DNA of 64,000 nt, taken from NCBI GenBank assembly GCA_015295945.1, contig DVED01000085.1, positions 1 through 64,000 of the forward strand, written 5' to 3'. Below, piece after piece: positions 8,226 to 18,928 of the stretch. Numbering within the stretch: position 1 is the stretch's first letter; each line of letters starts with the position of its first letter. Under the pieces are notes generated by a model, which did no database searches, was not told where the DNA came from, and was given only the letters and a program-made list of their open reading frames with translations. Made by a program: the position numbers and the translations under genes. The DNA is from Oscillatoriales cyanobacterium M59_W2019_021. Lineage in GTDB: Bacteria; Cyanobacteriota; Cyanobacteriia; Cyanobacteriales; Geitlerinemataceae.

Positions 8226-8981
8226 TTACGCAGCTTTTTGTTGCTTCTTGCCGCGACGCTTCAGAGCGGAACCGAAGCCGAGAGCCATCGCAGAACCCAC
8301 GATCGTCATCGGTTCGGGTACGTCCTTGTCGCTGGTGGGGGGGGTGACAGTCATGCCGCGACCCGTGCCACTATCTCCATTAAAGCCATTACCGTCAATG
8401 CTTTGGTAGCGAACGCCGAAGTTGCTCAAACCGAAGCTGGAAACCGCACTGGCGAAGTTCAACGTTGCGGTGAAGTTGCCGCTCGATCCCGCAAAAACAC
8501 CACCGTTCCGTCCGCCTTGACAGTTATTACCATTAGTAAAGCAGACATCGAGAGCCCCAAATTGGTTGGGTAAGGAACCGTCTTTAACGACGTTGCTGAA
8601 GAGACCGGTGGAAGTACCAAAGTTTCGGCGAGGTAAATCCACACCATCAAGATTGAAACCTAAAACCGAAGTCCGAGAGTTAATGCCTCCATCGGAAAGG
8701 TTGCTCAGCATGATATCCCACTCCGCGCTGTCACCGTCAAAGCTGAGCAGCTTAAAGATCGCTTTCGACTTCAAGCCATCGACATTCTGAGTGGCAACAT
8801 TACCATCGAACTCGATCTCGAAGGACTTACCAACGTCATCGCTGGTGATTCCGGTGACGCTACCGCCGTTGAGGGTAAACGCAGAAGCCGAAGGAGCGCC
8901 AGCCAAGAAAGCGAGACCCAAAGTGGAAACAGCCGATAATCCGAGGGCAACTTTAGAAAAAGCGGAAGTTGAAACTTTCAT
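8226..8981 (-). CDS. PEP-CTERM sorting-signal protein, secreted
   Basis: 251-residue exported protein of unknown function. Starting at ATG 8981 gives a signal peptide ending APSASA (about residues 1-34). The mature region is beta-rich and contains a two-cysteine segment DVCFTNGNNCQGGRNGGVFAG around residues 155-175, reminiscent of the so-called cistern family of PEP-CTERM proteins (a tentative match). The end has VPEP, a hydrophobic stretch and a Lys/Arg-rich tail, the PEP-CTERM tag recognised by an exosortase-like system. It shares this tag with the haem peroxidase at 174-1916. Monocistronic with its own terminator. Confidence 0.8.
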   Translation of the reverse strand: MKVSTSAFSKVALGLSAVSTLGLAFLAGAPSASAFTLNGGSVTGITSDDVGKSFEIEFDGNVATQNVDGLKSKAIFKLLSFDGDSAEWDIMLSNLSDGGINSRTSVLGFNLDGVDLPRRNFGTSTGLFSNVVKDGSLPNQFGALDVCFTNGNNCQGGRNGGVFAGSSGNFTATLNFASAVSSFGLSNFGVRYQSIDGNGFNGDSGTGRGMTVTPPTSDKDVPEPMTIVGSAMALGFGSALKRRGKKQQKAA

Positions 8982-9592
8982 GGTAAGCATTAATTGGGTT
9001 GATAGGATTTGTAGAACAGTCAACAAGATGAAGCGATCCGCATTGAATCCGTTGGATGTACCCTGTCCGATCTATTTTGAGATCGTGGATTTCAGATTTT
9101 TCATTGACAGGTGTCGAACGAGATTCTAGATCCGATTGAAAACCACTATTACCATCTGTCTTGCAACAAAAAGTTGTAGGAGATTTCAGTCGAGTTCTCT
9201 TTCGGTGCTTCAATTACAACCCTATCCACCCCACCCTAGAGATGCCCACTCTTTTGGTAATATTTTATACAGTCTTTAACTAAGTAACTTTTTTTGTGTG
9301 GAAAGCAAAAACTTAAGAGTTGAAATTGATGGAAGTCTCTACTCCCTTGAGATCGAGGTCACACCCGGAAATTTTATAGAGCTTTATAAAATCTTGTTAA
9401 TTTGAGTTTTATCGCTTTAAAAAACCGATAAAAAATAGAACTTAATGCGGGGTCTCAGTCCTCATAGGGCTGCCACAAATGGAGAGCGAAATCGAGAGTT
9501 TGGAGTTGGAGTTGCCAACGGGTGAATTTCCAGGGCTGAGAGGCTGCCAGATAGAGTAAGATGAAGCTTCCCCTACAGAAATCGATCGTTCA
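8982..9592. other. long divergent intergenic region
   Basis: About 610 bases separating two divergent genes. It is AT-rich from 9240 to 9440 and contains a palindrome at 9371-9392. I looked for a cobalamin riboswitch ahead of the cbiG-cobJ gene and found no B12 box. No coding frame is convincing. Confidence 0.5.
9371..9392. promoter_or_regulatory. 22-bp AT-rich palindrome, possible operator
   Basis: ATTTTATAGAGCT followed by TTATAAAAT forms an imperfect palindrome in the middle of the divergent promoter region between the PEP-CTERM gene and cbiG-cobJ. A dimeric regulator could bind here. There is no direct evidence. Confidence 0.3.
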
Positions 9593-11584
9593 GTGACACC
9601 CTTCCAGACCGTGAAATTAGCAGAGTTTTCCCCTATAGCGGCGATCGCCACCACTGCCAACAGCGCCCGACGCCTCGGGCAACTCCGTCAAATTGCCGAT
9701 GTCACGCTGTGGGTTCCCCCTTCTGTCACCGACATTCCCCACGCGCAAATTTATACCATCCCTTTAAAAGAACATATCGCGACCTTATGGTCGCACCATC
9801 GGGCGTTGGTGTTCGGTTTGGCAACCGGTGCGGTGGTGCGGTTAATCGCTCCCTTGCTGCAAGATAAATCGATCGATCCGGCGGTGGTGGTGGTGGATGA
9901 AGCGGGGAAATTTGCGGTGAGTTTGTGTAGCGGACACCAAGGCGGTGCCGATCGTCTCACCCAGTCGATCGCCCGACAGTTGGGGGCAACACCCGTGTTA
10001 ACCGGAGCTTCCGCCAGTTTGGGACTGCCGGCGGTGGATTTGTTGGGGGTTCCCTTCGGTTGGACGAAAGGAACGGGAGACTGGACGGGAGTGAGTGCGG
10101 CAGTGGCGCGAGGGGAAACGGTAGAAGTGTTTCAGGATGCGGGTTGGGAGTTGAACCTTCCCCATCCTGCCTTCGCGATCCAAAATTTACGCTCGTGCAG
10201 CGACCCCCAGGGAGTATCGCCCGATTCTATCGATCCCAATTCTCCGAAAACCGACCTCAAAGGTAGAATTTGGATTAGTTTTACCCAGCGACAGTTTTCC
10301 CCAGAATCGCCCTTACCCAAGGTACAGTGGCATCCTCGGGTGTTGTGGGTGGGGGTGGGATGCGAGCGGGGAACCCCTCGGAGTGCGATCGAAGACGCGA
10401 TCGCACGGGTGTTTCGGGCAAATCACCTCGCCGAAGGATCGATCGCCGGAATCGCCACGATCGCTCTAAAAGCCGATGAGGTAGGATTGTTGGAGTTGTG
10501 CGGCGATCGCCACCTCCCCCTCGTTACCTTTTCCCCCGAACAACTGCGCGACATCGAAGTTCCCAACCCTTCGGAAGTGGTAGATCGAGAAGTGGGAACC
10601 CCCAGCGTAGCCGAAGCGGCGGCAATTTTCGCGGCTTCCTCCGATTCCTTGCAGTTCCGACCCCCCTTAGTCCCTGCAAGGGGGGAGACCACTCGTCCCC
10701 TCTCCTCGGAGGAGAGGGTTAGGGAGAGGTGGGAACGAGATGGGGGTCAACTCCTCGTCCCCAAACAGATTTACAAACCCGAAAACCAACCCGGTGCGGT
10801 GACGGTGGCAGTGGCAGTGGCTTCGCGGGAATATACCGGACGCGACGGCAAATTATGGCTGGTGGGAACGGGACCCGGTTGTTTGGAACAGATGACTCCT
10901 GCCGCCCAAGATGCGATCGCCCGAGCGGATGCCATCGTCGGTTACTCTCTCTATATCAATTTGGTGCGTCCCCTCCTCCAGCCCCAACAAATTATCGAAG
11001 CCTTGCCCATTACCCAAGAACGACAGCGGGCGCAACGAGCGATCGATCTCGCCCAGTGGGGTTTGACGGTTGCGGTTATCTCCTCCGGTGACTGCGGGAT
11101 TTACGGCATGGGAGGCTTAGTTTTGGAGGAATTGCAAGCCCGAAATTGGGATGGAAAAACCCCTTCCCTGCAAGTGTTTCCCGGTATTTCCGCCCTGCAA
11201 TCGGCAGCCTCGCGGGTGGGAACCCCGCTCATGCACGATTTCTGCTCCATCAGTTTGAGCGATTTGCTGACGCCTTGGGAGGTTATCGAAAAACGGCTGA
11301 ATGCGGCAGCAGCAGCAGATTTTGTGGTCGCCCTGTACAATCCCAAATCGCAAAATCGCACCGAACAAATCGCGATCGCCCGACGAATTTTCCTAGAACA
11401 TCGTTCTCCTCAGACTCCGGTGGCACTCGTTCGTTCTGCCTATCGCGACGACGAACGAGTGATGTTAACCACGCTCGATCGTTTTTTGGAGTTTGAAGTC
11501 GATATGCTGACCACGGTTCTCATCGGCAATACTCAAACTCGATCGTACGAAAACTGGATGATTACGCCTCGAGGCTACTACTAG
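9593..11584 (+). CDS. CbiG-CobJ/CbiH fusion, cobalamin biosynthesis
   Basis: Bifunctional corrin-ring enzyme of 663 residues. The N-terminal part (about 1-345) is CbiG, cobalt-precorrin-5A hydrolase (motifs GLATGAVVRLIAP and VVDEAGKFAVSLCSGHQGGAD), including the C-terminal CbiG subdomain (GVGCERGTP). Residues about 420-663 are the precorrin-3B C17-methyltransferase CobJ/CbiH with the SAM-binding LWLVGTGPG and VISSGDCGIYGMGG motifs. Together they cover ring contraction and the following deacylation. The fusion is usual in cyanobacteria. The linker (residues about 355-385) is low-complexity and encoded by palindromic repeats. The start is GTG 9593 because an upstream ATG at 9561 is closed by a stop. 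The gene stands alone. Confidence 0.92.
   Translation: MTPFQTVKLAEFSPIAAIATTANSARRLGQLRQIADVTLWVPPSVTDIPHAQIYTIPLKEHIATLWSHHRALVFGLATGAVVRLIAPLLQDKSIDPAVVVVDEAGKFAVSLCSGHQGGADRLTQSIARQLGATPVLTGASASLGLPAVDLLGVPFGWTKGTGDWTGVSAAVARGETVEVFQDAGWELNLPHPAFAIQNLRSCSDPQGVSPDSIDPNSPKTDLKGRIWISFTQRQFSPESPLPKVQWHPRVLWVGVGCERGTPRSAIEDAIARVFRANHLAEGSIAGIATIALKADEVGLLELCGDRHLPLVTFSPEQLRDIEVPNPSEVVDREVGTPSVAEAAAIFAASSDSLQFRPPLVPARGETTRPLSSEERVRERWERDGGQLLVPKQIYKPENQPGAVTVAVAVASREYTGRDGKLWLVGTGPGCLEQMTPAAQDAIARADAIVGYSLYINLVRPLLQPQQIIEALPITQERQRAQRAIDLAQWGLTVAVISSGDCGIYGMGGLVLEELQARNWDGKTPSLQVFPGISALQSAASRVGTPLMHDFCSISLSDLLTPWEVIEKRLNAAAAADFVVALYNPKSQNRTEQIAIARRIFLEHRSPQTPVALVRSAYRDDERVMLTTLDRFLEFEVDMLTTVLIGNTQTRSYENWMITPRGYY
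10660..10733. repeat. palindromic repeat inside the cbiG-cobJ linker
   Basis: Two tandem palindromes, CCCCCTT/AAGGGGGG and CCCTCTCCTCGGAGGAGAGGG, read in frame as the Pro/Arg/Glu-rich linker between the two enzyme domains. The composition (runs of C and G) is unlike the flanking coding sequence and looks like an intergenic repeat tolerated in a flexible linker. Confidence 0.65.
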
Positions 11585-12028
11585 CAATTTACCTAGTCAC
11601 AAATAACGGGTGGAGGCTGGCGCAGAAATTTGGTGAGACCGGGACGCATATCCGATCGTCAATCCCTATTCCGCGAGATAGAGCGCTACGTAAATACGTT
11701 AGGACAATTTTGTAAGGGTATAGGCGTAGCCAGCGCTCTGCCTTCTGCGATACAACATTCCCCCGCTCAAGTTCTGTCTGAAGGTAGAAGTCGAGCCGGG
11801 GTCGTAATTAGTATCTTAGGATTAATCGAACGACAAGCATTTAGCTTTTGAGAGTTAAATTCCTCATCGATCGCAATGCTTGTTGTCCAAGCCAAACTTG
11901 GGTGCGTTACCTCTAAATCTTGAGAGCGACTGCCAACACACGAATTATCAAAATTTTTTTAGTGGGCGTCATCGGAAAATTTAGAAACATACAAATCGGA
12001 TAACCCTCAAATAAAAGGAGAAAAAATC
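11585..12028. other. intergenic region
   Basis: No supported gene. A 73-codon frame (11630-11851) has no recognisable product. An inverted repeat ACAAGCATT ... AATGCTTGT brackets about 11833-11887 and could form a hairpin. The last 40 bases carry the AAAGGAGAAAA ribosome binding site of the next gene. Confidence 0.5.
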
Positions 12029-12295
12029 ATGGGTTTAATTGCATGGGCTGTATTAGGATTACTAGCTGGTGCGATCGCCAAAGCCATTTATCCCGGATCT
12101 CAAGGCGGCGGTATCCTAGCAACAATGCTTCTGGGAATTGTGGGTGCTTTCCTTGGAGGCAGTCTGTATACGCTACTAACCACTAGCAGCTTGCAACTAA
12201 CGGCAGCAGGTTTGAGTATTGGCGGGTTAGTGGTTGCCGTTTTAGGGGCGATTCTCGCGATCTACCTGTGGGGTTTATTGGCACGTTCTGCCTAA
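12029..12295 (+). CDS. GlsB/YeaQ/YmgE-family membrane protein
   Basis: 88-residue transglycosylase-associated/GlsB stress-response family protein with three predicted membrane helices and glycine-rich turns: MGLIAWAVLGLLAGAIAKAI, GGGILATMLLGIVGAFLGG, and a C-terminal VVAVLGAILAIYLW helix. The family is small, hydrophobic and stress-linked; the molecular activity is unknown. A strong Shine-Dalgarno (AAAGGAG) precedes ATG 12029. A long hairpin follows. Confidence 0.88.
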   Translation: MGLIAWAVLGLLAGAIAKAIYPGSQGGGILATMLLGIVGAFLGGSLYTLLTTSSLQLTAAGLSIGGLVVAVLGAILAIYLWGLLARSA

Positions 12296-12328
12296 ACTTT
12301 CATCACGCCATCCGGCTTGCTAATTTTG

Positions 12329-12364
12329 CGCTCGAGTCTGGTTGAAAAAAACTAGATTCGAGCG
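12329..12364 (+). terminator. 15-bp hairpin between glsB-like gene and nblA
   Basis: CGCTCGAGTCTGGTT pairs almost perfectly with AACTAGATTCGAGCG around an A-rich loop. It follows the GlsB-like gene by about 30 bases. There is no U-tract, so it may be an mRNA 3-prime stabiliser or a weak terminator ahead of the nblA promoter. Confidence 0.5.
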
Positions 12365-12397
12365 AGATTAATCTACCTAGCATATTGTGATACAACG

Positions 12398-12580
12398 ATG
12401 GATAGCAATACATTTGAACTCACCCTAGAGCAACAGTTTCATATGCAAATGATGGAACGATCGCTCGACTTACTCTCCAAAGAGCAAATGCAAAGTTTAT
12501 TTCTAGAAACCTCGCGATTACTGATGATTAAGGAAAATATCATTAAAGGCTTGATGCGAGATAAAATTTTAAAGAAATGA
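12398..12580 (+). CDS. nblA: NblA-like phycobilisome degradation protein
   Basis: 60-residue protein of the NblA family. NblA is a small helical adaptor that binds phycobiliproteins and ClpC to drive phycobilisome proteolysis during nutrient starvation. Family features are the acidic start and ELTLEQQF, a first helix with Met/Glu pattern, and a second helix with SKEQMQSLFLETSRLLMIKENIIKGLM, matching the two-helix antiparallel fold. Length is typical. Its last codon overlaps the start of the next gene (ATGA at 12577), so it heads a three-gene unit. The sequence is more divergent than standard NblA after the first helix, so it may be a paralogue. Nutrient-stress control is expected, but I cannot place a specific site. 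Confidence 0.75.
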   Translation: MDSNTFELTLEQQFHMQMMERSLDLLSKEQMQSLFLETSRLLMIKENIIKGLMRDKILKK

Positions 12581-13491
12581 GCCGTAGCGAACGCCAATAT
12601 CGATTCAGAATGCGCCAGTTTGGATGGCGAGATGAACTTAAATTTCTCATTCGCGGAATATCCGGGGGATTCCTGTTTGGGATTCCTTTAATCTATACGA
12701 TGGAAGTCTGGTGGATTGGCTCTTACACCGAACCCCCGGTTAAACTGGCACTACTCGCCGTAACCTTTGGAGTTATTTTTTTACTCAGCCGGACGGAAAG
12801 TTTTGGGGACGATCCCAGCGAGCGGTTTTCTCAAACCTTCAGAAAAAGTATTAAATCTTTAGCGATCGGGATTATTTGTACGACTTTTATACTCATTCTT
12901 TTAAGAGAGATTAGAATCGAAACATCCTTAAATGAAGCATTAGGAAAAATTATTTACGAAGGGATGCCGTTTTCGATCGGGGTAGCCTTATCCAAGGTTC
13001 TTCTCAACGATACAGACGACGATCGCTTTGAGGATAAGGCAGATTTAAATGAAAATCAATACTCAGCGGGAGCGTTAAGATCGGAAGATCTCTACAGTGC
13101 GACGTTAGCCGATATTGGAGCAACCTTTATCGGTGCTTTTTTTATTGCCTTTAGTATCGCGCCAACGGATGAAATTTCCATGCTAACCTCGGCAACTTCA
13201 CCACCTTTTTTGCTCGCAATTATTGCCGCTTCTTTGGCGATTTCATACGCGATCGTCTTTGCCTCTGGATTCACAACGCAAGACAAACGAAACTCGCAAC
13301 GAGGATTGTTTCAAAACCCGATCGACGAAACGGTCATGTCTTATTTGGTTTCGCTTTTTGCCTCAATTTTGATGCTATTATTTTTCCAGCGTTTAAATTT
13401 TTCCGATCCGTGGACGTGGTGGCTCGAACAAGCACTGATTCTAGGATTGCCCGCGACTGTGGGGGGTGCGGCAGGAAGATTGGCAGTATGA
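12577..13491 (+). CDS. TIGR02587 family membrane protein
   Basis: 304-residue integral membrane protein of family TIGR02587 (DUF2391-type), function unknown. It has about seven or eight predicted helices: two at about 28-45 and 50-70, one near 95-115, and five or so from 175 to 304, with an acidic cytoplasmic loop (NDTDDDRFEDKADLNENQ) about 148-165. It overlaps nblA by 4 bases at its start and TIGR02588 by 4 bases at its end, implying translational coupling of all three. The pairing of TIGR02587 with TIGR02588 is usual in bacteria; the nblA neighbour is not something I know as general. Confidence 0.85.
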   Translation: MSRSERQYRFRMRQFGWRDELKFLIRGISGGFLFGIPLIYTMEVWWIGSYTEPPVKLALLAVTFGVIFLLSRTESFGDDPSERFSQTFRKSIKSLAIGIICTTFILILLREIRIETSLNEALGKIIYEGMPFSIGVALSKVLLNDTDDDRFEDKADLNENQYSAGALRSEDLYSATLADIGATFIGAFFIAFSIAPTDEISMLTSATSPPFLLAIIAASLAISYAIVFASGFTTQDKRNSQRGLFQNPIDETVMSYLVSLFASILMLLFFQRLNFSDPWTWWLEQALILGLPATVGGAAGRLAV

Positions 13492-13904
13492 CCCAAATCT
13501 CGAAAATTCGATCGAAATCGAAACGAAAATCTCGAACTTTTGCCGAAAAGGTGACCTTTGTCTTCTCGGTGCTAGTAGTTAGCATTCTGGTTAGTTTAGT
13601 TCTGATAGTCTGGATTTTTAAAGGCGAGCGACCTCCAGTCCTCGAAATTGCGAGAAATGGAGAAATTCGCGCGGTCAACGGACAGTTTTACGTTCCTTTT
13701 GTGCTGACTAATGAAGGCGGAGAAAATGTGGAAAACGTCCAGGTTGTCGGAGATCTAGAAATAGATGGCAAGACGGAAGAATCGGGAGAGCAGTCGATGG
13801 ATTTTCTGTCCGCCGGAGAACGAGAAGAAGGCGCGTTTATCTTCCACCGCAACCCTGAAGACGGTCGGGTGATGTTGCGGGTTGCCAGTTATAAAGTCCC
13901 TTAA
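13488..13904 (+). CDS. TIGR02588 family protein
   Basis: 138 residues, single N-terminal membrane anchor (about 20-44, FVFSVLVVSILVSLVLIVWIF) after a Lys/Arg-rich cytoplasmic start, then an extracytoplasmic beta-sandwich-like domain (GQFYVPFVLTNEGGENVENVQVVG). This is the constant partner of TIGR02587 and is coupled to it by an ATGA overlap. Its stop codon overlaps the stop of the convergent gene (TTAA, 13901-13904). Function unknown. Confidence 0.85.
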   Translation: MTQISKIRSKSKRKSRTFAEKVTFVFSVLVVSILVSLVLIVWIFKGERPPVLEIARNGEIRAVNGQFYVPFVLTNEGGENVENVQVVGDLEIDGKTEESGEQSMDFLSAGEREEGAFIFHRNPEDGRVMLRVASYKVP

Positions 13905-15547
13905 AATCCATTCTCGATCGCTTCTAAATTAGGTTGTGCGGAAGGATCTTCGATCGCTTCTGGAGAGGGTTGAACGGACGAATCTTCGATCGCCGCCAAA
14001 GGATCGATGGGGGGCTGAATTTCCGGTGGCGGCGCACCGTACAGCTTGGCGACCAACCCAGAAATCCACTGACCGGTTTCGCTCGACGCGCTGACCTGTT
14101 CGTTCGCCCATTTCATCGCCGCTTGACGATCGCCTTGAGCCGCTTTCAGTAACGTTCCCCAGGCAATGGTATCGGCATCCGACGACACCCGCACCGCCAC
14201 ATCGATGCGCTGCCAAATGCGACCCGTATCGGTTTTCAACAGTTCGATAATTTCCGCTTGCTGGTCGGGATTGTTCTCTAAAATCTCTAACGCCGTCCGC
14301 CATTGCCCGTCGATCAGCGCTGCCAGCACCGCTTGACTGGGACTCGCCCACGCTGCTTTTGCCTGATTTTGGGTGATGCGCGCGTGTAGGGCAACGACAT
14401 CCATCTGTGCTTGAGCCGCTGGCGTCCAATTGCTACCGCTTTCTCGCTTCAGCACCCCCAGAATTTCCAAGGCAGGCGACCACAACCCCTTACGGGCGAG
14501 TAACAGAGCATTTTTGTAAGTGCGGCTGTCGAAAGCGGCTTCCGATAGGGTAATCTCTTGCAACTGGATGGGGTTGAGGATGAAGTTGCGCGGTTGCACC
14601 TGGTACACGTCAATGTAGGGTTCGAGTCCGATACTGCGATCGATCGTCAGTTCCGCCGTTTTTCCCCCCGTTACCTCTTGCCATTCGGGAATTTGCCCCG
14701 AAGGACTCGTCCACTGCAACATCAAACTCAAATGCGATCGACTGGGATTGTAGTGGAAAATTTGCCCGTAGCTCATCTGCGAATCCCCTTCGAGGCGACT
14801 GCCTTGAAGGTTGAACCACAGTCCGGTATCGGGCGCTTTGCTGTCGAAGCGTTTTAAAGCCGTCAAATCTAGCGGGCGATTGGAACCCGATGCCGAAGAC
14901 AAGTTGGCTAGGGAGGCGATAACGAAGGATTCCGCCGGACCTGCCACTTCAACTTGGTTGACGAGATAGTAGTAGTCGCGATCTTTGTTGGGGGTAAACT
15001 CTTCGGATGCCGATTGATACACCCGCAGTTGGGTAATGGGACGACAACCGCGATCGCAATTGGGACGCTGGAGGTAGACGGGTAAGAGGATCTCGGTTTT
15101 CCCGTCGTTTGCCGAAGACAGAAACACCGTTTCCCCGGCTTCCATCCCTTGTTGCTTCAAACTTTGGTGGATTTCGTCCAAGGTTTGGGGGGCAGAAGGG
15201 TTGTCCGTGGCAATTTTCGCCCATTCCGGCAACCACCGCGTCGTCCAAGCGAGAGATTCTGGATGCAGCATCGACTGCACGCTGAACCACGCACCGCCTG
15301 CCATCAACCCCAGACCCCCTAACAAGGCGACGATCGCACCCAAGACGCCATAGGTCTGTTTTGGAGGGGAACGGCGGGGAGAACGAGCGGGGGGTAATGC
15401 GTTCAGTTGTCGGGGTGCGAGTCGAGAGGGTTGACGCCTGCGAATGGCACTCGATGGGCGACGCTGGCGTCGGGTGGGTTGGGGTTTGCGTACAGTCACA
15501 CTCAATGGGAGGTAAGGGTTTACTCTTCCGTGTACATCTTCTGTCAC
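13901..15547 (-). CDS. single-pass membrane protein of unknown function
   Basis: 548 residues, family not recognised. A basic Arg/Pro-rich cytoplasmic tail (1-64) is followed by one membrane helix (about 66-92) and a large extracytoplasmic region with a Cys pair (CDRGCR) near 165. The part from about 335 is helical and repeat-like (RKGLWSPALEILGVLKRESG), resembling TPR-type repeats. The end carries a short degenerate direct repeat built on AIEDSSVQPSPE / AIEDPSAQPNLE / AIENGF. It is probably conserved in cyanobacteria. Convergent with the TIGR02588 gene; the stop codons overlap. Confidence 0.75.
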   Translation of the reverse strand: MTEDVHGRVNPYLPLSVTVRKPQPTRRQRRPSSAIRRRQPSRLAPRQLNALPPARSPRRSPPKQTYGVLGAIVALLGGLGLMAGGAWFSVQSMLHPESLAWTTRWLPEWAKIATDNPSAPQTLDEIHQSLKQQGMEAGETVFLSSANDGKTEILLPVYLQRPNCDRGCRPITQLRVYQSASEEFTPNKDRDYYYLVNQVEVAGPAESFVIASLANLSSASGSNRPLDLTALKRFDSKAPDTGLWFNLQGSRLEGDSQMSYGQIFHYNPSRSHLSLMLQWTSPSGQIPEWQEVTGGKTAELTIDRSIGLEPYIDVYQVQPRNFILNPIQLQEITLSEAAFDSRTYKNALLLARKGLWSPALEILGVLKRESGSNWTPAAQAQMDVVALHARITQNQAKAAWASPSQAVLAALIDGQWRTALEILENNPDQQAEIIELLKTDTGRIWQRIDVAVRVSSDADTIAWGTLLKAAQGDRQAAMKWANEQVSASSETGQWISGLVAKLYGAPPPEIQPPIDPLAAIEDSSVQPSPEAIEDPSAQPNLEAIENGF

Positions 15548-16197: not shown

Positions 16198-16656
16198 ATG
16201 GCTAAACGCATTCAATTATTGTTAAATCAAGATGTCCGCAAATTGGGCAAAGCGGGCGAAGTGGTCGAAGTTGCGCCGGGATACGCTCGCAATTATCTCA
16301 TTCCCCAAAATATCGGCGTGCGCACGACGCCCGGTATTTTAAAAATGGTGGAATGGCGCAAGCAAAAAGAACAAGAGCGCTTGATCAGTATCAAGCAAGA
16401 AGCCGAATCGCGCAAGCAGGCATTGCAAACCATCGGTCGCTTTACGATTAAGAAGCAAGTGGGCGAAAAAGATGCGATTTTCGGTACGGTGACCGATCGC
16501 GAAGTGGTCGAAGCCATCCAAGCAGCAACGAACCAGGAGATCGATCGCAGAGGCGTAACGCTGCCGGAAATCAGCAAAACGGGTTTCTACAAGGCTCAGG
16601 TGAAGTTGCATCCGGAAGTCACCGCAGAAATCGAGATCCACGTCGCGCCGTTGTAA
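16198..16656 (+). CDS. rplI: 50S ribosomal protein L9
   Basis: 152 residues, typical bacterial L9 length. It binds 23S rRNA domain V at the base of the L1 stalk. Visible: N-terminal RNA-binding domain ([27 protein letters not shown]), long connecting helix about 41-75 ([19 protein letters not shown]) and C-terminal domain ([14 protein letters not shown] ... [13 protein letters not shown]). It is followed 175 bases on by a terminator and then dnaB. The rplI-dnaB order is common in bacteria. Confidence 0.97.
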
Positions 16657-16921: not shown

Positions 16922-18928
16922 ATGGTTCGAGAACTTAACTTTCAGGCTTATCAAGAAGATCGGCTTCCCCCGCAAAACATCGAGGCGGAGGAATCGATTC
17001 TCGGGGGAATTTTGCTCGATCCCGAGGCGATCGCGCGGGTGCGGGAAGTGCTGGTTGCCGAAGCGTTTTATATCGGCGCCCACCGAGATATCTTCAACGC
17101 CGCGCAATGGCTGCACGAGCGCGGACAACCCACGGATTTGATCGGCGTGACGGCGTGGTTGCAAGATCGCAACTTGTTGGGCAAAATCGGTGGGCAGAGC
17201 AAACTGGCGCAATTGGTCGAGCGCACGGTGTCGGCGGTGAATATCGACCAGTACGCGGCACTGGTGATGGACAAGTATTTGCGCCGCCAGTTGATTAAAG
17301 CGGGATACGAAATTCACCAACTGGGTTACGAAACGTCTTCGCAATTGGATATCGTTCTCGATCGCGCCGAACAAACGATCTTTGGGGTGACGCAAAAACG
17401 CCCGCAACGGGATTTCGTGTCGCTCGAAAATACTCTGGTTCATGCCTTCCACGAAATCGAACTGCGCAACGAGGAACAAGCTTTACCGGGTTTGCTCTCC
17501 AGTTTTTACGATCTCGATGCGATGACCGGGGGATTTCAGCGATCGGATTTGATTATTATTGCCGGCAGACCCTCGATGGGTAAAACTGCTGTGAGTTTGA
17601 ATATCGCCCACCAAATTGCCGCGCGCTATCGCTTACCCGTGGCGGTGTTTAGTTTGGAGATGTCCAAAGAGCAATTGGTGCAGCGATTGCTGGCAAGCGA
17701 AGCGGGAATTGAAAGCCAACGCCTGAGATCCGGACGCATCAGTCAAAATGAATGGGAACCGCTGAGTCACGCCATCGGTACGCTATCGGAATTGCCGATT
17801 TTTATCGACGATACGGCAAATTTAACGGTGACGGAAATGCGATCGAAATCCCGTCGCTTGATGGCGGAACGGGGCGGTGAAATGGGCTGTATCGTTCTCG
17901 ATTATTTGCAGTTGATGGAAGGCAGCGGTAGCGATAATCGGGTACAGGAATTGTCTCGCATCACCCGATCGCTCAAAGGGTTGGCGCGGGAATTAGACGT
18001 TCCGGTGATCGCCCTTTCCCAACTCAGTCGCGGCGTAGAAGCGCGCAATAATAAACGTCCCATGCTGTCGGATTTGCGCGAATCTGGCTGCTTGGCGGGC
18101 GACAGTTTGGTGACGCTAGCCGATTGTGGTATACGAGTCCCCATTCGCGAATTAGTGGGGAAATCGGGTTTTACAGTCTGGGCATTGAATGAAGCTACGC
18201 TGCAATTAGAAAAGGCAGTGGTGAGCCGTGCTTTTGCCACGGGTGTTAAGCCCGTATTTCAGTTAAAAACTCGTTTGGGACGGACGATTCGAGCCACGGG
18301 CAATCATAAGTTCCGAACACTTAGCGGCTGGAAGCGCCTCGATGAGTTACAAGTCTCAGAGCGAGTCGCACTTCCCCGCATTGTGCCGAGTCCGTCCGAG
18401 CGATCGAGCGATGATGCCCGTTTGGCTTTGCTGGGACACTTGCTGGGCGATGGATGCACCCTCCCCCGTCATGCCATCCAATACACCACAAAAGAGGAAG
18501 ATCTCGCTCAGCTTGTTGTAGCTCACTGCGGGACAACGTTGTACAAACAAAATGTCAGTCGCGATCGCGCGGCTAGACTGGCGACGGTTGTCCGCTCTGA
18601 AGAAATCGAACGCTTAGCCAATAGCGATATTTATTGGGATGAAATTGTCTCGATCGAAGCGGATGGGATGGAAGAAGTTTACGATTTGACCGTTCCCAAT
18701 TTGCACAATTTTATTGCGAATGACATTATCGTTCACAATAGCATCGAACAAGATGCGGATGTGGTGATTATGGTATACCGCGACGAGTATTATTTCCCCG
18801 ATTCTCCCGATCGCGGCATTACCGAATTGATCGTTACCAAACATCGTAACGGACCGACGGGGGTGGTGAAGTTACTCTTCGATCCCCAATACACCCGCTT
18901 CCGCAATATGGTCAATCGCGAACGATAG
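16922..18928 (+). CDS. dnaB: replicative DNA helicase DnaB with intein
   Basis: Hexameric 5-prime to 3-prime helicase of the replication fork. The coded precursor is 668 residues; after protein splicing the helicase would be 451 residues, the normal size. Visible: N-terminal primase-interacting domain (PPQNIEAEESILGGILLD), RecA core with Walker A GRPSMGKTA, and the DnaB motifs FSLEMSKEQLVQRLLASE and VLDYLQLM. An intein (residues 390-606) interrupts the conserved SDLRESG/SIEQDADVV segment, the same site as the well-known Synechocystis DnaB intein. The helicase continues in frame on both sides and no key helicase residue is lost. Confidence 0.96.
   Translation: MVRELNFQAYQEDRLPPQNIEAEESILGGILLDPEAIARVREVLVAEAFYIGAHRDIFNAAQWLHERGQPTDLIGVTAWLQDRNLLGKIGGQSKLAQLVERTVSAVNIDQYAALVMDKYLRRQLIKAGYEIHQLGYETSSQLDIVLDRAEQTIFGVTQKRPQRDFVSLENTLVHAFHEIELRNEEQALPGLLSSFYDLDAMTGGFQRSDLIIIAGRPSMGKTAVSLNIAHQIAARYRLPVAVFSLEMSKEQLVQRLLASEAGIESQRLRSGRISQNEWEPLSHAIGTLSELPIFIDDTANLTVTEMRSKSRRLMAERGGEMGCIVLDYLQLMEGSGSDNRVQELSRITRSLKGLARELDVPVIALSQLSRGVEARNNKRPMLSDLRESGCLAGDSLVTLADCGIRVPIRELVGKSGFTVWALNEATLQLEKAVVSRAFATGVKPVFQLKTRLGRTIRATGNHKFRTLSGWKRLDELQVSERVALPRIVPSPSERSSDDARLALLGHLLGDGCTLPRHAIQYTTKEEDLAQLVVAHCGTTLYKQNVSRDRAARLATVVRSEEIERLANSDIYWDEIVSIEADGMEEVYDLTVPNLHNFIANDIIVHNSIEQDADVVIMVYRDEYYFPDSPDRGITELIVTKHRNGPTGVVKLLFDPQYTRFRNMVNRER
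18089..18739 (+). other. DnaB intein, endonuclease domain largely lost
   Basis: 217-residue intein, precursor residues Cys390-Asn606, followed by Ser607 as the C-extein nucleophile. Splicing blocks are intact: block A CLAGDSLVTL, block B ATGNHKF with the catalytic His, block F EVYDLTVPNLHNFIAND and block G IIVHN with penultimate His and final Asn. In the middle a single LAGLIDADG-like motif (LALLGHLLGDGC) survives, but the remainder of the homing endonuclease is cut to about 60 residues, with no second motif. So it should splice but not home. The endonuclease-bearing allele at this site is about 430 residues. Confidence 0.9.

Follow-up and report, generated by a model that had tools for sequence, protein, structure and literature searches.

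An nblA gene overlapping the TIGR02587/TIGR02588 membrane protein pair beside a YmgE-like gene in a cyanobacterium

Organization of the nblA locus

The window analyzed here is a stretch of 64,000 nucleotides from Oscillatoriales cyanobacterium M59_W2019_021 (contig DVED01000085.1, positions 1 to 64,000). It carries four consecutive genes on the forward strand, which code for a YmgE-like small membrane protein, NblA, and members of the TIGR02587 and TIGR02588 families (Table 1). The original prediction described the last three of these, and their reading frames, coordinates, family matches and ATGA overlaps are all confirmed. Both overlaps are 4 bp long, and so the geometry expected for coupled translation of the three genes also stands. 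However, that gene list left out the YmgE-like gene, which is part of the same conserved order. The TIGR02587 match is full-length, spanning positions 1-271 of the 271-position profile.

Table 1. Features of the four-gene locus in the window.
Feature	Position	Strand	Basis
YmgE/YeaQ-like small membrane protein (Transgly_assoc, PF04226)	12029..12295	+	Pfam 27.7 bits vs 25.3
nblA, T. vulcanus/Synechocystis-type, 60 aa	12398..12580	+	PF04485 57.5 bits vs cut-off 25
TIGR02587/DUF2391 multi-pass membrane protein, 304 aa	12577..13491	+	TIGR02587 287 bits vs 183.7; DUF2391 356 bits
TIGR02588, 138 aa, ATG start at 13488	13488..13904	+	126 bits vs 95
ATGA overlap nblA/TIGR02587, 4 bp	12577..12580	+	window sequence
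ATGA overlap TIGR02587/TIGR02588, 4 bp	13488..13491	+	window sequence
15-bp hairpin between YmgE-like gene and nblA, no T-run after it	12329..12364	+	RNA fold

The nblA, TIGR02587 and TIGR02588 genes have no intergenic space that could hold a promoter. The YmgE-like gene is separated from nblA by 102 bp on the same strand. The predicted RNA fold of this gap (12296-12397) has an energy of -34.9 kcal/mol (z = -6.1). Because the gap contains a strong hairpin, the YmgE-like gene and nblA may have separate transcripts. Stable hairpins are also predicted in the same gap of three related loci described below, where the total fold energy is unexceptional. A search of positions 11600-14100 against Rfam returned a chance snoRNA match below threshold and nothing else, and a scan for promoters and terminators gave no clear excess over shuffled sequences. 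The source genome carries two nblA genes besides the window copy, and its TIGR02587 and TIGR02588 genes are single-copy.

Several other genes in the window were also noted. A DnaB replicative helicase gene (16922-18928, + strand) contains an in-frame intein, for which the N- and C-terminal splicing profiles both score above cut-off, and it adjoins rplI (16198-16656). A fused cobalamin-synthesis ORF of 663 aa (9593-11584, + strand) has a CbiG-like N-terminal part and a CobJ/CbiH C-terminal part. A Cistern-family PEP-CTERM protein is encoded at 8226-9026 on the minus strand.

The window NblA protein

The window protein scores 42.7 bits against the NCBIfam equivalog model NF045916, whose cut-off is 100, and we therefore call it a family member rather than a proven equivalog. 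Its closest solved relative is the NblA of Thermosynechococcus vulcanus (PDB 2Q8V; E 2.3e-8, residues 6-54), and it also matches the solved structures 2QDO and 3CS5. In a tree built from 60 columns, in which few forks are resolved, the window copy is located in a branch with the T. vulcanus NblA (2Q8V, 2QDO) and the tandem NblA proteins of Synechocystis-type genomes. This branch is separate from the common Nostoc-type NblA with a support of 91/83, a value that derives from these few columns. The window protein is about equal in length to its T. vulcanus and Synechocystis-type relatives and has a SRLLMxKxN-like motif in common with them. The Synechocystis-type tandem nblA copies that we examined do not adjoin TIGR02587/88 genes, unlike the window nblA.

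Residues L52 and R54 of the window protein align with L51 and K53 of Anabaena NblA, which we take to be phycobilisome-binding residues, and the residues are conservative. A literature search on NblA Lys53 returned unrelated matches only. The best reading of the sequence is that the window NblA is an adaptor of the ordinary ClpC-phycobilisome type rather than an odd one. A different job for a divergent NblA, which the original prediction had allowed for, is not needed given its place in the T. vulcanus/Synechocystis-type branch. A phage origin for the gene was considered and rejected, as the sole phage match is the PaV-LD nblA at 40% identity.

We also consider it improbable that NblA serves a different client, namely that once a stress has passed it hands the TIGR02587/88 proteins, or some other stress protein, to ClpC to be removed. 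Coupled translation would then link the amount of the adaptor to the amount of the pair. In addition, the C terminus of the window NblA does not have the KHxWG tail of the Nostoc-type proteins, which are the commonest type, and its score is below the equivalog cut-off. However, this tail is likewise absent from T. vulcanus NblA, the Synechocystis-type proteins and other members of the branch, and the T. vulcanus and Synechocystis-type proteins have much of a SRLLMxKxNxI motif. Moreover, most genomes carry the pair without an NblA partner.

The TIGR02587/TIGR02588 pair

The TIGR02587 protein has about eight predicted membrane helices and an all-helical AlphaFold2 model (mean pLDDT 83). Its strongly conserved motifs are GGFLFGIPLLYTMEVWW and LPATxGGAAGR. 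A fold search against the PDB gave no match with E <0.1 and TM-scores of about 0.2, and thus no convincing fold match. The TIGR02588 model (pLDDT 87) consists of a helix at residues 18-44, which appears to be a single N-terminal membrane anchor, followed by seven strands that form a C-terminal beta-sandwich. Its best fold match is the DUF1425 protein 3O0L, a generic beta-sandwich likeness that is too general for a function to be named from it. A search of the open literature for TIGR02587, TIGR02588 and DUF2391 found no paper on these families. The positively charged N terminus and the one anchor suggest that the TIGR02588 sandwich is located away from the cytoplasm. NblA, which works in the cytoplasm, would thus be on the side of the membrane opposite this predicted domain.

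Of 386 genomes sampled over the phylum, 40 carry TIGR02587. Within the order to which the window belongs, it is present in 154 of 391 genomes, which represent 71 of 150 genera. We read 181 distinct TIGR02587 loci. Their sources were whole genomes and the best 80 loci kept from a scan that covered 84,980 species. TIGR02588 adjoins TIGR02587 in 175 of these loci, and an ATGA overlap between the two genes is the usual form in nearly all of them, and so this junction is not special to the window. The two-gene unit also occurs in alphaproteobacteria, including Rhizobium, Azospirillum, Paracoccus and Sphingobium, and these organisms have no phycobilisomes. Among alphaproteobacterial plasmids, for example, one of a Sinorhizobium has treS/glgB next to the pair, and in a Microvirga there is a ferritin-like gene nearby. 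The window pair conforms to this unit, with both families above their curated cut-offs and the usual overlap, but differs from it by the addition of a coupled upstream nblA.

Recurrence of the nblA linkage

An nblA gene is located directly upstream of TIGR02587, and in line with it, in four of the 181 distinct loci. These are the window (ATGA junction), Hydrococcus sp. Prado102 (L065; TAATG), a contig labelled Gracilibacteria (L070, JAAUUT010000064.1, found again as G626; TAATG) and Chlorogloea purpurea SAG 13.99 (L073; TAAATG). In all four, the nblA stop and the TIGR02587 start lie within a few bases of each other, a YmgE-like gene is directly upstream of nblA, and the distance from the YmgE-like gene to TIGR02587 is 281-317 bp. 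The four-gene order is kept in two distant families. Because the linkage recurs in other genomes, the possibility that nblA is near the pair in this genome alone can be set aside. The L070 contig is filed as Candidatus Gracilibacteria, but its operon is clearly cyanobacterial. The genome that matches it falls in the Hydrococcus-like genus of the order, the genus of the Prado102 locus, which points to a mis-binned or mislabelled record.

A rough Poisson estimate, which takes 1.6-3 nblA copies per genome of about 6.2 Mb and ignores relatedness, predicts 0.02-0.05 chance neighbors among the 154 of 391 genomes, against four full examples observed in two to three lineages. Given this recurrence, we reject chance adjacency. 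We therefore regard the linkage of nblA to TIGR02587/88 as real. It is nevertheless a rare variant, as about 96% of the distinct loci carry the pair without nblA.

Other associations were also found. An nblA gene of a different type adjoins the pair in divergent orientation in an Acaryochloridaceae locus (L105), and a fragment of a divergent gene of a different type, cut by the contig end, is beside the pair in a Thermosynechococcus metagenome-assembled genome (L144). In another locus (L135), a gene for a window-type NblA is 2.5 kb from the pair. Three genomes of one genus (G070, G406 and G540, family f11) have nblA 3.6-9 kb from TIGR02587, possibly in the same island. Finally, a shortened nblA-like ORF of 35 aa (L024:1322-1429), with its middle third missing, is located 20 bp upstream of TIGR02587 and might reflect decay or a mini-NblA.

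These patterns bear on whether the neighborhood has any functional meaning. It is possible, though unlikely, that nblA arrived in stress islands on a few occasions, or that the cluster was transferred laterally, without functional coupling. The 35-aa remnant fits such a history, as does a locus in the TIGR02587 clade of the window (L115) that has a YmgE gene 310 bp upstream but no nblA. Furthermore, the clade that includes the TIGR02587 proteins of the window, L065 and L073 mixes families. The NblA tree resolves neither a sister relation between the window copy and the other linked copies nor a single clade of linked copies. Given this and the few genomes that show the linkage, the association could be partly accidental. 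However, the tight junction is retained in three sequence forms, the gene order is conserved across distant families, and the chance expectation is far below what is observed.

Stress-gene surroundings

The pair is located beside genes for YmgE/YeaQ, CsbD, YflT and Dps proteins in many cyanobacteria. Among the 181 distinct loci, the recurring families include YmgE-like (32), YflT (34), CsbD (30) and Dps/ferritin-like (24) proteins. The window resembles these islands of small general-stress proteins through its YmgE-like gene, and differs from them by the addition of a gene for an antenna-degradation adaptor. This stress-gene context was not part of the original prediction.

Window-type NblA genes also occur in such surroundings without TIGR02587/88. 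In three genomes of another family (L263, L264 and L269), they are beside YmgE and YflT genes. In six further loci (L255, L257, L258, L260, L261 and L270), their neighbor codes for a member of a family of small secreted proteins, which is a marker of TIGR02587 islands as well. Since window-type NblA adjoins stress genes even where the pair is missing, the stress context appears to be the common factor. Thus, nblA and the pair are tied to stress islands both separately and together, a pattern that fits co-regulation better than it fits a joint complex.

The same observations weigh on the membrane-linked step in phycobilisome turnover that the original prediction suggested. In such a dedicated disassembly operon, TIGR02587/88 would provide a thylakoid docking site for ClpC or for phycobilisomes to which NblA is bound. 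The coupled geometry in the window and in L065, L070 and L073 is in keeping with this arrangement, and the divergent genes of L105 and L144 provide a second kind of association with a different NblA type. However, the idea gains little, because the pair nearly always occurs without nblA and is also found in alphaproteobacteria that are free of phycobilisomes. The predicted non-cytoplasmic location of the TIGR02588 domain, and the occurrence of window-type NblA beside YmgE without the pair, also speak against this explanation, which we judge to be improbable.

Candidate regulatory sequences

The nblA gene of Nostoc is under NtcA control (PMC6166021). We looked for NtcA boxes as exact GTA-N8-TAC sequences. 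Such boxes are present within 400 bp upstream of both remaining nblA genes in the source genome, and these copies are probably nitrogen-controlled. One of them, the third nblA (G000:C149:8835-8972), is S. elongatus-like and has two exact NtcA boxes, together with an exact match to what we take to be the HLR1 (RpaB) pattern. For the window nblA, no exact box is found in the 102 bp upstream or in the 300 bp upstream of the YmgE-like gene, and the linked copies of L065, L070 and L073 likewise have none in comparable upstream stretches. As the motifs and the regions are short, this absence is weak evidence, but it fits a window nblA that might be outside direct nitrogen control.

A putative stress-regulon copy of nblA

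We lean, by a modest margin over even, toward a model where the window gene is a stress-regulon copy of an ordinary nblA that is co-produced with a stress-related membrane pair, each having an independent job. From gene order and homology, we infer a general-stress operon in which the YmgE-like gene is followed by nblA, TIGR02587 and TIGR02588 with coupled translation. Rather than the loss of nitrogen, the trigger would be osmotic stress, desiccation, heat stress or light stress. Stress-induced NblA might then bind phycobiliproteins and pass them to ClpC, resulting in a smaller antenna. The membrane pair would act in the same stress response, with its own job in membrane protection or transport. 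Coupling would fix the timing and dose of the products rather than form a physical complex. The presence of two other nblA genes in the source genome was counted against this stress-operon model, as were the 102-bp gap with its hairpin and the small number of genomes that show the linkage.

A variant that joins the two functions is that the four-gene unit is a dedicated stress antenna-removal module, wherein the TIGR02587/88 proteins form a membrane complex that holds ClpC, or phycobilisomes carrying NblA, in place at the thylakoid. We regard this variant as improbable, but if true it would provide the first function for TIGR02587/88.

The stress-regulon model points to a general-stress copy of nblA, distinct from the cell's other copies, which are probably under nitrogen control. 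An nblA copy dedicated to stress would offer a way to test how the antenna of cyanobacteria is shed under desiccation, salt or light stress. Membership in stress islands is also a first concrete lead for TIGR02587/88, a pair of membrane proteins that is both widespread and strongly conserved.
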